From NCBI RefSeq assembly GCF_000686885.1, contig NZ_JMLU01000002.1:1-64000 (forward strand): a stretch of DNA of 64,000 nucleotides, read 5' to 3'. Shown here piece by piece: positions 4,089-63,696 of this stretch; the first letter of the stretch is position 1; the number at the start of each line of letters is the position of its first letter. The position numbers and the translations under genes were made by a program. The DNA is from Flavobacterium sasangense DSM 21067 (GTDB lineage: Bacteria; Bacteroidota; Bacteroidia; Flavobacteriales; Flavobacteriaceae). The notes below the pieces were generated by a model. It did no database searches. It was not told the DNA's origin and worked only from the letters and a program-made list of their open reading frames with translations.

Positions 4089-4126
4089 AAAAATCCCTCA
4101 AATAGATAGATTGAGGGATTTTTTTT
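4089..4126. terminator. Bidirectional intrinsic terminator
   Basis: AAATCCCTCAA pairs with TTGAGGGATTT, flanked by an A-run on the left and a T-run on the right. It separates the convergent GH25 and lptB genes and can stop both. Confidence 0.85.
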
Positions 4127-44197: not shown

Positions 44198-45796
44198 ATG
44201 AAAAATATACTAATCGTATTTTTGTTGGCTTTTTTTCAGTCAACAACAGCACAAAGCACATTCGAATATGATGTGGTGTTAACTCCGGTTTCCGTTTCAG
44301 GACTACCAGGATTGCATTCCTATGCTTTTGCACAACACAACGGAAAATGGCTTATTATTGGCGGTAGAAAAGATGGTGTTCACGCACGTCAGCCTTTTAA
44401 TGCTTTTCCAGGAGCTCAAAATAATACGGATATGTATGTGGTAGATATTGCAACGCAGCAATCTTGGTCGGCTTCTGTGAATTCACTTCCAACAGGAATT
44501 AAAGAGCAATTGCAATCTACGAATATGAATTTTTATCAAGATGGTGATGCTTTGTTTATTATTGGAGGATATGCTTTTTCAACAACAGCTGCCGATCATA
44601 AAACCTTCAATAATTTGACTTCGGTTGATGTGCCTAATTTGGTAAATGCAATTGTGGCGGGAACTCCAATTACATCCTATTTCAAGCAAATTTCCAATGA
44701 TGTTTTTGCGATTACGGGAGGACAATTGGGTAAAATTGGAAATACATTTTATTTGGTGGGCGGACATCGTTTTGATGGTCGATACAATCCGATGAACAAT
44801 CCAACGTTTACACAAACCTATTCAAATGCCATCCAAAAATTTACGATTGATAACTCGGGAAGTTCTTTGAGTTATGCCAATTATGAAGAAATTGTGGATG
44901 CGGTTCATTTACACCGTCGCGATTATAATTTGTTGCCTCAAATATTTCCTAATGGAGAATTAGGTTACACGATTTCGTCAGGCGTATTTCAAATTGCGGT
45001 GGAATTACCGTTTTTATATCCAGTTGATATTAAAGCAGGAGGTTATTTTCCACAGACGCAATTCAATCAATATTTGAGTAATTATCACAGCGGAAAAGCA
45101 TGTTTGTATGATGCTACCAATAACAGAATGCATAATTTGTTTTTTGGAGGTATGAGTCAGTACTATTATTCGAATGGTACTTTATTACAAGATGATACCG
45201 TACCCTTTGTGAAAACTATTAGTAGAACAACACGTTTAGCCGATGGAAGTTTATTCGAATATCAATTACCTATCGAGATGACTAATTTAAAAGGAGCTGG
45301 TGCTGAATTCATCCCAAATGAGAGTTTGCCGCATTATTCAAATGAAGTAATTCAATTGTCGAATATTACTGCGGATGAATTTGTAATCGGACATTTATTT
45401 GGCGGGATTCAAAGTTCTTCAATATCAGCTTTTACGGACAACCAAACCAGTTTGACTAGTGCCGATCCAACGGTTTACCAAGTTAAATTAGTTAAAAATC
45501 CGTTGTTGAGTTCGCCTCAAATTGATGGTAAAAATCCGTTTTCATTCACGGTTTCACCTAATCCAACGTCAAATGATTCTGTAAGAATTCAATTTGATAT
45601 GCCTTATTCGGCTAAAGTAAATTATATTCTAACTACTTTAGATGGTAAAATTGCAGAAGAAGGAGAAATCGAAGATGTGAAAGCAGGAACAAATGCTATG
45701 AACTTTAGTTTGGCCTCTGCTAAAACTGAGTTCGTAATTATTACTTTCATTTTTGACGACAAATTTTATGTGTCTCAAAAAGTGATAAAACAGTAA
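44198..45796 (+). CDS. Secreted Kelch-like T9SS cargo protein
   Basis: A 532-residue protein with a signal peptide (ends FFQSTTAQ). The body carries Kelch-type strands: HNGKWLIIGGRKDG, DGDALFIIGGYAFS and IGNTFYLVGGHRFDG. The last 85 residues (FTVSPNPTSNDSVRIQF... to the end) are a type A T9SS sorting domain, so it is exported by the type IX system. The function is unknown; it lies between the operator-controlled genes but shows no such operator of its own. Confidence 0.85.
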   Translation: MKNILIVFLLAFFQSTTAQSTFEYDVVLTPVSVSGLPGLHSYAFAQHNGKWLIIGGRKDGVHARQPFNAFPGAQNNTDMYVVDIATQQSWSASVNSLPTGIKEQLQSTNMNFYQDGDALFIIGGYAFSTTAADHKTFNNLTSVDVPNLVNAIVAGTPITSYFKQISNDVFAITGGQLGKIGNTFYLVGGHRFDGRYNPMNNPTFTQTYSNAIQKFTIDNSGSSLSYANYEEIVDAVHLHRRDYNLLPQIFPNGELGYTISSGVFQIAVELPFLYPVDIKAGGYFPQTQFNQYLSNYHSGKACLYDATNNRMHNLFFGGMSQYYYSNGTLLQDDTVPFVKTISRTTRLADGSLFEYQLPIEMTNLKGAGAEFIPNESLPHYSNEVIQLSNITADEFVIGHLFGGIQSSSISAFTDNQTSLTSADPTVYQVKLVKNPLLSSPQIDGKNPFSFTVSPNPTSNDSVRIQFDMPYSAKVNYILTTLDGKIAEEGEIEDVKAGTNAMNFSLASAKTEFVIITFIFDDKFYVSQKVIKQ

Positions 45797-45843
45797 TACT
45801 GTTAAATTAATAAAAAATTAAGAGTACTATTTTTAAAATTATA

Positions 45844-45851
45844 TATATTTG
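45844..45851 (+). promoter_or_regulatory. -7 box upstream of the Lys/Cys-rich gene
   Basis: TATATTTG, a full TAnnTTTG match, with no TTG or palindrome at the expected spacing. The leader to the ATG at 45906 would be about 50 nt. Confidence 0.45.
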
Positions 45852-45905
45852 TAATGGTACAATACAAACAAAAAAGAATAAATAACAATTTAAAAATACA
45901 AAAAA

Positions 45906-46112
45906 ATGAAAAAATTAGTTTCAATTATGGCAGTAGCTGCTTTTATGTTTTCAATGAATGTTAATGCTCAAGAGCCAAAACAAAAAGCAAAAAAAGAAAC
46001 AGCAAAAACTGAAAAATCTTGTTCAACTGCTGACAAAAAATCTTGTGGTTCAGAAGCTAAATCAGGAGGATGTTGTTCTTCTAAAAAAGCTGCTGAGAAA
46101 AAAGCTGAATAG
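45906..46112 (+). CDS. Small secreted Lys/Cys-rich protein
   Basis: A 68-residue protein with a signal peptide (ends NVNAQ). The mature part of about 45 residues is very rich in Lys, with Cys at KSCST, KKSCGS and GGCCSS (four Cys in all). It has no recognised family. The proximity to the RND operon and the Cys pattern suggest metal or thiol binding, but this is inference. It carries its own terminator. Confidence 0.72.
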   Translation: MKKLVSIMAVAAFMFSMNVNAQEPKQKAKKETAKTEKSCSTADKKSCGSEAKSGGCCSSKKAAEKKAE

Positions 46113-46130
46113 TTTTATACTAAATATTTA

Positions 46131-46165
46131 TAAAGACGCCTCGATTATTTCGGGGCGTTTTTTTA
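46131..46165 (+). terminator. Terminator of the Lys/Cys-rich gene
   Basis: ACGCCTCGA pairs imperfectly with TTCGGGGCGT, followed by seven T. It ends right before the next operator. Confidence 0.8.
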
Positions 46166-46166
46166 T

Positions 46167-46210
46167 GTAACAAATGTTGCTGATTGGGTTTTTGAAAAGG
46201 CATAATTTTG
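46167..46210 (+). promoter_or_regulatory. Operator and promoter of a candidate small RNA
   Basis: GTAAC-AAAT-GTTGC at 46167-46180 (one mismatch to the palindrome) is centred 29.5 bp upstream of TAATTTTG (46203-46210). The spacing equals that of the three gene-linked sites. Confidence 0.55.
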
Positions 46211-46214
46211 AGAA

Positions 46215-46290
46215 ACAATTCATTGAGAAATTAATGACTGTTTTTAGTTTTATTGGTTAGTAAAAGAGCATCTGTATAGGTGCTCTTTTC
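46215..46290 (+). ncRNA. Candidate operator-controlled small RNA or mini-ORF
   Basis: From the TAATTTTG promoter a transcript of about 75 nt would end at a 9-bp hairpin (AAAAGAGCA / TGCTCTTTT, 46262-46289). No gene of normal size lies inside. An 8-codon frame (MTVFSFIG, 46234-46260) stops just before the hairpin. The T-run is only four long, so the terminator is moderate. No known RNA family is recognised. The exact 5' end is inferred from the box position. Confidence 0.45.
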
Positions 46291-46294
46291 ATAT

Positions 46295-46360
46295 GTAACA
46301 AATATTGCAAAGCTTTGTAACTCTTGTTACCGACTACCTTTTTTTACGAACGTACATTTG
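46295..46360 (+). promoter_or_regulatory. Operators and promoter of the TolC-RND operon
   Basis: The perfect palindrome GTAAC-TCTT-GTTAC at 46317-46330 is centred 29.5 bp upstream of TACATTTG (46353-46360). A weaker site, GTAAC-AAAT-ATTGC at 46295-46308, lies 22 bp further upstream, two helical turns away. The start codon of the TolC gene follows at 46388. Confidence 0.65.
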
Positions 46361-46387
46361 TATCGTTAATTAAGAATAAAACTAACT

Positions 46388-47695
46388 ATGAAAAAAATCA
46401 ATTTAATAATCGTACTTGGATTGGTGTCTATTTCTGCTCTTGCGCAAGATACTTTGAGGATTTCAAAAAATGATTTATTACAGAAAGTCACTGAAAATAA
46501 TCTACAAATTAAAGTGGCAGAAAAATCATTTCAGTCTGCAAAAGCGGATTATCGTCAATCGAATGCACTCTTTTTGCCCAATATTAATGTTTCGCATACA
46601 GGAATAGTCACAACCAATCCATTAATGGCTTTTGGTTCGAAATTAAATCAAGAAATTTTAACCGCTTCCGATTTTAATCCGGCATTATTAAATAATCCTG
46701 ATAAAACGCAAAATTTTGCCACCAAAATAGAAGTCCAACAACCACTTATCAACTTAGATGGTTTATACGGAAGACAAGCCGCTAAAGCAAAAATGGATGC
46801 CTTTCAATTACAAACAGAACGTACTAAAGAATATTTGGTACTGGAAGTTTCAAAAGCCTATATGCAATTGCAATTGGCTTATAAAGCAGTGAAAGTTTTA
46901 GAAAAGGCAAATGCGACAGCACAAGGCAATTTAAAATTGGTAGAAAACTATTTCAAAAACGGAATGCTACAAAAAACCGATTTGCTAAACGTACAAGTTC
47001 GTGTGAATGAAATTTCAAATCAATTGCAATATGCCAAATCAAATGTGCAAAATGCTTCGGATTATTTAGCCTTTTTATTGAACGAAGATTTGGCTGGGAA
47101 AACCTATAAACCAGTTGAAGTTTTAGATAATGCAATTGCCATCGAAAGTATCAATACAACAATTTCTGATTCCAGAAAGGATATTCAAGCGATGCAAAAA
47201 TCTGCAGAAGCGTATCAAAAAATGTTTCAATCGTCTAAATTCGGATTCTTACCTAGATTAAATGCTTTTGGAAGTTACGAATTATATGACCAAAACATTT
47301 TCGGAACTTCAGCTAAAGGATATGTAGTAGGAGCACAATTATCATGGAATGTTTTTGATGGCTATAAAAACATCGGAAAAACGCAAAAAGCAAAAGCAGA
47401 TTTTGAAAAAGCTGAAATTGAAACCGAACAATACAAAAAACAAAGTCAGTTAGAATTGAATAAAACCAATCGTCAATTGCTTGATGCGGAAAACAAAGTG
47501 AACTTATCACAATTGGCTTTTGAACAATCGCAAGAAGCTTTTAGAATTCGTCAAAATAGATTCACTCAAGGTTTAGAAAAAACAACCGATTTATTACTGT
47601 CGGAAACCCAAATGGCCCAAAAAGAATTAGAGCATTTGCAAGCCGTTTTCGAATATAACTTTACCAAACAATACTTACAATTTTTAACGAAATAA
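46388..47695 (+). CDS. TolC family outer membrane efflux protein
   Basis: A 435-residue outer-membrane channel with a signal peptide (ends ISALAQ). It has two TolC repeats of long helices with coiled-coil character (QLQYAKSNVQNASDYLAF; KKQSQLELNKTNRQLLDAE). It forms the outer duct of the tripartite pump with the next two genes. It starts an operon 4 bp ahead of the adaptor gene. The promoter carries an Fnr-like palindrome. The substrate is unknown. Confidence 0.92.
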   Translation: MKKINLIIVLGLVSISALAQDTLRISKNDLLQKVTENNLQIKVAEKSFQSAKADYRQSNALFLPNINVSHTGIVTTNPLMAFGSKLNQEILTASDFNPALLNNPDKTQNFATKIEVQQPLINLDGLYGRQAAKAKMDAFQLQTERTKEYLVLEVSKAYMQLQLAYKAVKVLEKANATAQGNLKLVENYFKNGMLQKTDLLNVQVRVNEISNQLQYAKSNVQNASDYLAFLLNEDLAGKTYKPVEVLDNAIAIESINTTISDSRKDIQAMQKSAEAYQKMFQSSKFGFLPRLNAFGSYELYDQNIFGTSAKGYVVGAQLSWNVFDGYKNIGKTQKAKADFEKAEIETEQYKKQSQLELNKTNRQLLDAENKVNLSQLAFEQSQEAFRIRQNRFTQGLEKTTDLLLSETQMAQKELEHLQAVFEYNFTKQYLQFLTK

Positions 47696-62356: not shown

Positions 62357-62983
62357 ATGAAAAAAATAGCATTTTATTTATTAATATGCTTTGTGTCATT
62401 AACAGCACAAGCACAAACTATAAAACCATTATCAAGTTTTTATACAGGTACACAAAATTACTCAAACGACGACACTGTATTAATACAACCAGTCTATTAT
62501 AAAGACACCTTTAATCATTTTACTCCTTTTATAGGTTCATGGAAATATGTTGAAGGTAATAAAACATTTATTGTAACTTTATATAAGGTTACAAAAAAGC
62601 CTATAACTCATAATAACAATGTTATATATTATATGGATTACATTTTTGGATATTATCGATTGGTGGAAAATTACGGATTATCTTCTGAAACTGAAATTTA
62701 CAATTCGCAAGATTTAACTGGTAATAGACCAGCTGAAATAAATTCTATAAGTCCAACAACAACCTATATGAATATTGAATTTCGTATATATGACGTTGTA
62801 GGGGTTAATTATAACCCTAATTTTGCAATGGGTATGACAGGCGATTTAAAGATAACCATAAATAATAGTACTAGTCCATTAACTGCACAATGGACAGTTA
62901 CTCCTATTTATGAAAAATGGTATAAAGAAGGAGAACCTAATAGTTTTGTAGTGCCAACAAATATTGTATTAATAAAAATGTAA
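62357..62983 (+). CDS. DUF6705-type secreted protein, copy 1
   Basis: A 208-residue protein with a signal peptide (LICFVSLTAQAQ). The mature part has the strand block FIGSWKYVEGNKTFIVTLYKVTK, the YYMDYIFGYYRLVENYG segment and a C-terminal FVVPTNIVLIKM. It fits DUF6705, a Bacteroidota family of beta-rich secreted proteins of unknown function. About 12 bp after the preceding lipoprotein gene, so probably the same operon. It is nearly a duplicate of the next gene. Confidence 0.85.
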   Translation: MKKIAFYLLICFVSLTAQAQTIKPLSSFYTGTQNYSNDDTVLIQPVYYKDTFNHFTPFIGSWKYVEGNKTFIVTLYKVTKKPITHNNNVIYYMDYIFGYYRLVENYGLSSETEIYNSQDLTGNRPAEINSISPTTTYMNIEFRIYDVVGVNYNPNFAMGMTGDLKITINNSTSPLTAQWTVTPIYEKWYKEGEPNSFVVPTNIVLIKM

Positions 62984-63069: not shown

Positions 63070-63696
63070 ATGAAAAAAATAACATTTTATTTATTAATAT
63101 GCTTTGTGTCATTAACAACACAAGCACAAAGTATAAAGCCTTTAAAAAGTTATTATACCGACTCTAAAGATTATTATGGCGATAATTTATTATTTGTACA
63201 ACCAGTATATTATAAAGACACATATAATCATTTTATTCCTTTTATCGGCTCATGGAAGTATGTTGAAGGTAATAAAACATTCATTGTAACTTTGTATAAA
63301 AAAACAAAAGAGGCTGCCTTTTGGAATGATAATATAGCCTATTATATGGATGATATTTATGGACATTATCGTCTAGTAGAAGACTTTGGACTCCCTACTG
63401 AAAATGAAATATACAATTCACAAGATTTGACAGGTAATAGACCTATGGAAATATTTTCATTAAGCCCTGAAACAAGCTATTTAAATATTATATGTCGAAT
63501 ATATGACGTGGTTGGAGCTAATAATAACCCAAACTTTGCAATGGGTATGGAAGGAGATTTAAAAATAACCATAAATAATAATACAAATCCATTAACGGCA
63601 AAATGGACGGTTACTCCTATTCATGAAAAATGGTATAAAGAAGGAGAACCTACTAGTTTTGTAGTACCAACAAATATCGTATTAACAAAAATGTAA
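63070..63696 (+). CDS. DUF6705-type secreted protein, copy 2
   Basis: A 208-residue tandem copy. The signal-peptide region is almost identical at DNA level to copy 1 (2 differences in the first 57 bases), and the mature part repeats FIGSWKYVEGNKTFIVTLYK, YYMDDIYGHYRLVEDFG and PTSFVVPTNIVLTKM. The copies differ most in the middle (TKEAAFWNDNIA vs TKKPITHNNNVI). This indicates a recent gene duplication followed by divergence. Confidence 0.85.
   Translation: MKKITFYLLICFVSLTTQAQSIKPLKSYYTDSKDYYGDNLLFVQPVYYKDTYNHFIPFIGSWKYVEGNKTFIVTLYKKTKEAAFWNDNIAYYMDDIYGHYRLVEDFGLPTENEIYNSQDLTGNRPMEIFSLSPETSYLNIICRIYDVVGANNNPNFAMGMEGDLKITINNNTNPLTAKWTVTPIHEKWYKEGEPTSFVVPTNIVLTKM

Follow-up and report, generated by a model that had tools for sequence, protein, structure and literature searches.

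A predicted small RNA upstream of a Flavobacterium tolC operon corresponds to the 3′ end of an oxidoreductase operon in related genomes

What does a regulated promoter produce when a hairpin follows after about 75 nt and the next gene has a promoter of its own? Positions 46167-46290 of the window, the 64,000-nt stretch analysed here (Flavobacterium sasangense DSM 21067, contig NZ_JMLU01000002.1), raise this question. The original prediction proposed an operator-controlled small RNA or an eight-codon mini-ORF ahead of an RND efflux operon. Comparison with related genomes points to an autonomous small RNA originating from the tail of an operon whose coding part has been lost in the window's strain; we put the probability of this account at roughly 0.55. 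The genome of the window is denoted G000 below, with other G-numbers for compared genomes and L-numbers for individual loci.

Layout of the unit upstream of tolC

A short unit of promoter, predicted RNA and hairpin upstream of the tolC operon is confirmed on direct reading of the sequence. Judged by its parts, it is a complete-looking transcription unit on the plus strand, set between a small Cys-rich peptide gene (45906-46112, plus strand) and the tolC-MFP-RND operon. The terminator of the Cys-rich peptide gene (46132-46162, plus strand) forms the upstream border and is recognizable from its fold (-18.9 kcal/mol for 46130-46165, z -6.5) and its conservation (mean identity 0.94 in the five closest genomes with the same layout as the window). 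Next comes the operator GTAACAAATGTTGC (46167-46180), a palindrome of Crp/Fnr-like appearance that deviates by one mismatch from GTAAC-N4-GTTAC, followed after a 22-nt spacer by TAATTTTG (46203-46210), a match to the flavobacterial primary-sigma promoter box TAnnTTTG. In F. psychrophilum this box occupies -12 to -5 (PMC9723704), and because of that register the predicted transcription start falls at 46215, the operator centre at -41.5, and the length of the RNA at ~75 nt. Given the same register, the palindrome sits close to -41.5 relative to a primary-sigma promoter, as a class II site of the Crp/Fnr family does. An activator that binds it, probably a member of this family, would initiate transcription at about 46215.

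The predicted RNA (46215-46289, both ends predicted) would begin within a 5′ stem-loop (46213-46243) whose first two nucleotides precede the start and which is weak in G000 alone. It continues with a conserved core, GTTTTTAGTTTTATTGGTTAGT (46240-46261), that is mostly unpaired in the predicted fold and has 19-20 nt in common with the 3′ UTR of acs. A terminator-like hairpin with a poor T tail closes the unit (46262-46289), and RNA polymerase would stop there. Transcription of about 75 nt before a hairpin, as first proposed, agrees with these boundaries; the hairpin itself is present and comprises 12 bp, not just the 9 originally described. A covariance model built from the sequences of five relatives (R1) retrieves the predicted RNA in G000 at E 5.5e-12. 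Downstream lie a weaker operator-like site at 46295 (two mismatches), the operator GTAACTCTTGTTAC and box TACATTTG of the tolC-MFP-RND operon (46317-46360, plus strand), and tolC, a TolC-type outer membrane efflux gene (46388-47695, plus strand).

The combination of operator and promoter box is far above chance. On the plus strand of the window, six operator-like sites show no more than one mismatch, and at four of these (43495, 43766, 46167 and 46317) TAnnTTTG follows 35-36 nt after the first base of the operator, which bears out the claim that this promoter is spaced like its neighbours; 30 order-2 simulated windows hold a mean of 0.0 such combinations. The pattern GTAACN4GTTRC-N21-23-TAnnTTTG occurs at five places in the whole G000 genome, four of them within the window cluster, and the reversed-pattern control yields 0 matches.

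The segment 46211-46290 folds at z = -5.1. Folding from the predicted start gives z = -3.0; the 5′ part (46215-46262) is unremarkable (z = 0.08), no better folded in G000 than its shuffles. An Rfam search of 45700-46500 (E up to 10) returned 19 matches, none of which reached the gathering score; the best (26.4 bits vs a gathering score of 54) covers the upstream terminator. In G000 the T tail of the hairpin is limited to the UUUU contributed by the stem, and CAU comes next. A terminator scan did not report 46262-46289, a result that says little because the scan also missed the clear terminator at 46132-46162. Leaky termination is possible, and together with the 98 nt from hairpin end to tolC start it suits an attenuator in which transcripts from 46215 read through a weak hairpin into tolC, the hairpin tuning expression of the pump. 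The operator and promoter of tolC itself, situated in that gap, argue against such a leader, as do two observations from relatives that are taken up below.

Conservation and operon context in relatives

Relatives of the unit were sought by DNA search (150 genus genomes), by pattern search and covariance model (398 genomes each), and by reading 13 tolC loci, 11 of which are without the core. At least 18 genomes carry the core before a terminator-like hairpin at the tolC/SQR locus. This is a lower bound: G199 was found through tolC locus reading and G124 outside the genus run of the model. Counts of covariance-model matches cover those that were read, not the weaker remainder. Eight genomes have the window layout, in which the core adjoins tolC with no enzyme between them (G000, G012, G188, G067, G032, G261, G253, G199), and ten have an operon layout (G258, G170, G122, G023, G380, G240, G134, G302, G366, G124). 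Reading of 17 further model matches gave three at the tolC-adjacent/SQR locus (G366, G261, G253), one at acs (G115), two loose core-like stretches (L106, L112), and 11 that look unrelated. A family-wide search of 299 genomes gave five weak matches besides G000, none with the full core; L375, L377 and L379 among them have GGTTAGT before the hairpin.

The operator (at most two mismatches), 22-nt spacer, TAnnTTTG box and hairpin are present in all eight window-layout genomes, and the U-rich core is kept, in diverged form in G261. Among the five closest genomes, mean pairwise identity reaches 0.94 for the operator vs 0.65 for the spacer, 1.00 for the box, 0.89 for the 5′ hairpin, 0.93 for the core and 0.71 for the gap up to the tolC operator; fourfold sites of the adjacent tolC range from 0.50 to 0.77 (mean 0.61). 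The local background is uneven, with the tolC promoter spacer 0.94 and the tolC 5′ UTR 0.80 identical. The terminator arms vary in their letters (0.62 and 0.77) and retain pairing: in 18 sequences from both layouts, 99.3% of cells in the inner 8-pair helix are paired and six of the eight pairs show two-sided change. Corresponding values for the 5′ stem-loop are 85.8% and 2 of 12 pairs. The underlying alignment (seven of the eight window-layout genomes, G199 being absent, all ten operon-layout genomes, and record L291) was fitted to the covariance model, which favours pairing. RNAalifold found no structure in the first alignment because the hairpins were out of register, a problem solved by the covariance model from five aligned sequences with the structure set by hand. 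An operator-controlled small RNA is thus backed by promoter statistics, by conservation, and by the covariation of the hairpin in relatives that the original prediction had named as a check.

The same comparison bears on the octapeptide frame MTVFSFIG* (46234-46260, plus strand), which exists as described and had been offered as a possible leader-type peptide. In its favour, G000 has an intact frame and 8 of the 10 operon-layout genomes encode MIVFSFIG; that the product is an eight-codon leader peptide is nonetheless extremely improbable. The octapeptide is found in one of eight window-layout genomes, where the reading frame is not conserved. It is lost mainly because the T run varies in length from three to five, which puts the codons out of register and leaves the nucleotide core in place.

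Conservation also weighs on the reading of the unit as a fossil, a promoter and terminator left after gene loss that merely insulate or prime the tolC operon while the RNA is inert. Such an origin would accommodate the ordinary fold of the 5′ part in G000, the conservation of neighbouring stretches such as the tolC promoter spacer, a possible benefit of the operator to tolC as DNA, the outcome of the target searches described below, and G115, a sister of G012 in the rpoB tree that has neither core nor SQR at tolC. Conservation of the box and core, however, exceeds that of fourfold sites and of the spacer within the unit itself, and the core also occurs at acs. Inert remains are, on balance, unlikely.

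What the original prediction could not show is that relatives carry this RNA as the tail of an operon, one whose coding part is absent here. In the ten operon-layout genomes, a 486-aa enzyme and a 42-43-aa microprotein precede the core and terminator. The enzyme matches Pyr_redox_2 and solved sulfide:quinone reductases (SQR; best E 8.5e-39) and lies far under the NCBIfam SQR cut-off (54 vs 525 bits), and it is referred to here as SQR-like. The conserved microprotein behind it, exemplified at L063 (5799-5927), ends there in KIVAGGHGGTRK; the one 43-aa copy scanned gave no match in either Pfam or NCBIfam. The same Cys-rich gene and operator stand ahead of the enzyme in G023, G240 and G380, so that the two layouts differ by a block of ~1.6 kb between promoter and 3′ end. 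The promoter of relatives would drive the SQR-like oxidoreductase, the microprotein, and then core and terminator; in the window's strain, with the coding part absent, it would drive the 3′ end directly.

Thirty SQR loci were read, 10 with the core, 2 with a diverged core (G314, G278) and 18 without it. Operator, 22-nt spacer and TAnnTTTG precede the enzyme at 24 of the 30 (10/10 with the core, 14/18 without, 0/2 with the diverged form), and since this promoter occurs at SQR loci with and without the core, it looks like the enzyme's own. In G314 and G278 the diverged core lies in the SQR 3′ UTR with tolC ~10 kb distant, which counts against a tolC leader. Six further genomes stand outside the 30 loci: G044, G165, G363 and G065, in which the core search found no core, G247 (partial) and G383 (broken). 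The SQR-like gene of G383 (L137) is matched as two overlapping pieces with internal stops and is a possible intermediate of operon decay. At L147 (G182), SQR, microprotein and tolC are adjacent; the 3′ UTR is without the full core, and no operator and box were found ahead of SQR.

An SQR ortholog was not found in six of the eight window-layout genomes and is displaced in the other two. A protein search at E ≤ 1e-20 gave no match in G000, G032 and G188 and just 35-37% matches in G012 and G067, a genus search at E ≤ 1e-100 found none in G199, and G253 and G261 carry a copy elsewhere in the genome. The simpler reading is that the coding block was lost: the operon layout occurs in distant branches of the sample (G258, G170, G302, G134, G122, G124), the diverged core is found in the 3′ UTR of SQR genes remote from tolC, and this type of promoter belongs to SQR loci regardless of the core. 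The two layouts are interspersed in an rpoB tree of 24 genomes, where G000 stands beside G366 and G032 beside G240 (G023, with no rpoB match, is absent, and several inner branches are weakly supported), and again in a tolC tree of 12 genomes. This pattern makes species-to-species exchange or recurrent loss likely, and it leaves room for a gain of SQR in place of its loss. An independent deletion in G253, where ATGAG before the core resembles the SQR start, was considered and set aside, as the resemblance is too short to claim. Retention of promoter and tail after gene loss suggests that the tail does a job of its own.

The shared core and its possible partners

Two of the 19 TTTATTGGTTA sites in G000 precede a terminator-like hairpin, one at the small-RNA locus and the other in the 3′ UTR of acs (acetyl-CoA synthetase, TIGR02188 above cut-off), and these two loci have TTTTTAGTTTTATTGGTTA in common. 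The acs 3′ UTR carries the 19-20-nt core right before its terminator at L210 (G000 C13:60628, minus strand) and L366, and reading of other genomes located the acs element in G012, G188, G032, G023, G261, G115, G199 and G067. A 19-mer scan of genome contigs found 99 stretches; among the 80 listed, 21 precede a terminator-like hairpin, 13 of them at acs and 8 at the small-RNA/SQR locus. Three of the 19-mer stretches (L236, L264, L279) fold below -12 kcal/mol with no T run. Neither TTTATTGGTTA in G000 (19 vs 16 reversed) nor a 15-mer of the core over 398 genomes (34 vs about 66 reversed) is enriched; the special feature of the core is its position before terminators, not its letter frequency. Looser cores were seen before terminators after an isocitrate lyase gene in G195 (L183/L369) and after a gene named by eye as rhodopsin-like in G394 (L182).

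In the proposed mechanism, the exposed core UUUUUAGUUUUAUUGGUUAGU would base-pair in trans, as partner of the acs 3′ UTR element with which it is shared. Target prediction, a further check named at the outset, yielded no established target: core-complementary sites are not in excess in G000 (36 vs 41 in the reversed control) or over five genomes (154 vs 182). Among the 36 G000 sites, 32 were listed, two of which are the core elements themselves; 24 of the listed sites were checked by script and one more was read. Two sites near an ATG with at least 45 open codons were not taken as targets, since L353 lies inside a longer frame and L356 at a terminator-like repeat. The start region of tolC takes 17th place among the 61 window genes; in the seven genomes computed its score was equalled by shuffles in 0.087-0.963 of trials, significant in none. 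The highest-scoring start region is that of a gene at 4125 on the minus strand (duplex -19.3), on the assumption of an ATG start where the ORF listing gives an upstream TTG.

These results also complete the case of the attenuator. An 11-nt complement to the core in the tolC 5′ UTR of G000, with the same duplex in G067, would fit readthrough into tolC under hairpin control, and the tolC complement reaches significance in none of the seven genomes tested; with the tolC promoter in between and the diverged cores ~10 kb from tolC, a leader of this kind is very unlikely.

The start region of acs has a 14-nt complement to the small RNA, a length reached by 3 of the 61 window genes, and a 16-nt complement to the 3′ UTR of acs itself, reached by none of the 61 (G-U pairs allowed in both). 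Both complements were found after the fact, and acs as a pairing partner is a lead only.

Alternatively, the core could be a protein- or nuclease-recognition site of certain mRNA 3′ ends, read for instance by an RbpB-type RRM protein, with no pairing to targets. The core stands directly before terminators at two unrelated loci, the looser cores of G195 and G394 occupy the same kind of position, and complementary sites are not enriched; Bacteroides RbpB binds single-stranded regions and prefers AU-rich sequence (PMC11697453). With only 2 of 19 G000 sites of such kind, however, the core is no general 3′-end signal, and it would remain to be explained why a stand-alone transcript made up almost entirely of the site is retained. 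We regard this explanation as unlikely, and retain a free small RNA descended from an operon tail as the preferred account.

Regulon, precedents and significance

The input to the small RNA can be approached through the genes that share its operator. Four of the five genomic promoters of the pattern (43495, 43766, 46167, 46317) lie within 3 kb, the fifth at C3:224625. They precede a DUF6132 gene, a gene for a 107-aa protein, the small RNA, tolC and, at the fifth place, a rhodanese, and constitute a tight, probably sulfur-linked regulon. The activator would turn on the efflux pump, the DUF6132 protein, the 107-aa protein and the rhodanese, along with SQR in relatives. Because the operator genes are of these kinds, with the SQR-like enzyme among them in relatives, gene content suggests sulfide or sulfane-sulfur (or redox) stress as the signal. 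Elsewhere in the window, 62357-62983 and 63070-63696 encode two tandem, similar 208-aa proteins with starts that look by eye like signal peptides.

FnrS is a small RNA under a Crp/Fnr-type site, and the predicted RNA may resemble it in this respect. The Fnr analogy drawn in the original prediction, with oxygen as the implied signal, is not supported as stated, the operator genes suggesting sulfur or redox stress instead. In contrast to FnrS, the element has no Rfam match near a gathering score, and its regulon looks sulfur-linked.

Closer precedents are small RNAs derived from 3′ UTRs. In those of the SdhX and OppZ type, the RNA is a second output of an mRNA, with a seed-like conserved sequence between stop codon and Rho-independent terminator (PMC9438474). 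The element occupies that position in the mRNA predicted for ten relatives, and its seed-like core past the stop codon is conserved (0.93 vs 0.50-0.77 at fourfold sites). The stand-alone form differs from this type in having its own activator-type promoter while the parent genes are absent. MalH/MicX of Vibrio offers a nearer likeness, one genomic position yielding an mRNA-made RNA in one species and an RNA with its own promoter in another (PMC9438474). The present case belongs to another phylum and involves another sequence and other genes, and what distinguishes its two states is whether the operon body is there.

Within Bacteroidota, the shared core recalls the FopS/GibS siblings with RbpB in Bacteroides, paralogous small RNAs with a common seed; 14 paralogous RNAs share a seed region there (PMC11697453), whereas two loci are involved here and the core sits just before the terminator. 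Rfp18 of Flavobacterium psychrophilum is likewise a small RNA conserved in the genus Flavobacterium; its predicted pairing runs through a third stem-loop, with protease targets (PMC9723704), and it is likened here by description, not by sequence. No paper on the element was found among the top-ranked matches in the open-access literature.

More tentatively, two 3′-end elements sharing a 19-nt seed, one in the acs mRNA and one in the SQR operon, might link sulfide stress to acetate metabolism. The sulfide operon would then have collapsed in several Flavobacterium lineages with only promoter and RNA surviving, which would put the emergence of a free small RNA from the tail of an mRNA in plain view. 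How free small RNAs originate is an open question, and close relatives that present the same RNA either as an mRNA tail or as the sole product of the same kind of promoter make this step testable by comparison. For Flavobacterium, the element would further mean a small RNA that has both a proposed input, the sulfur-linked regulon, and a sibling located on a gene of central metabolism.
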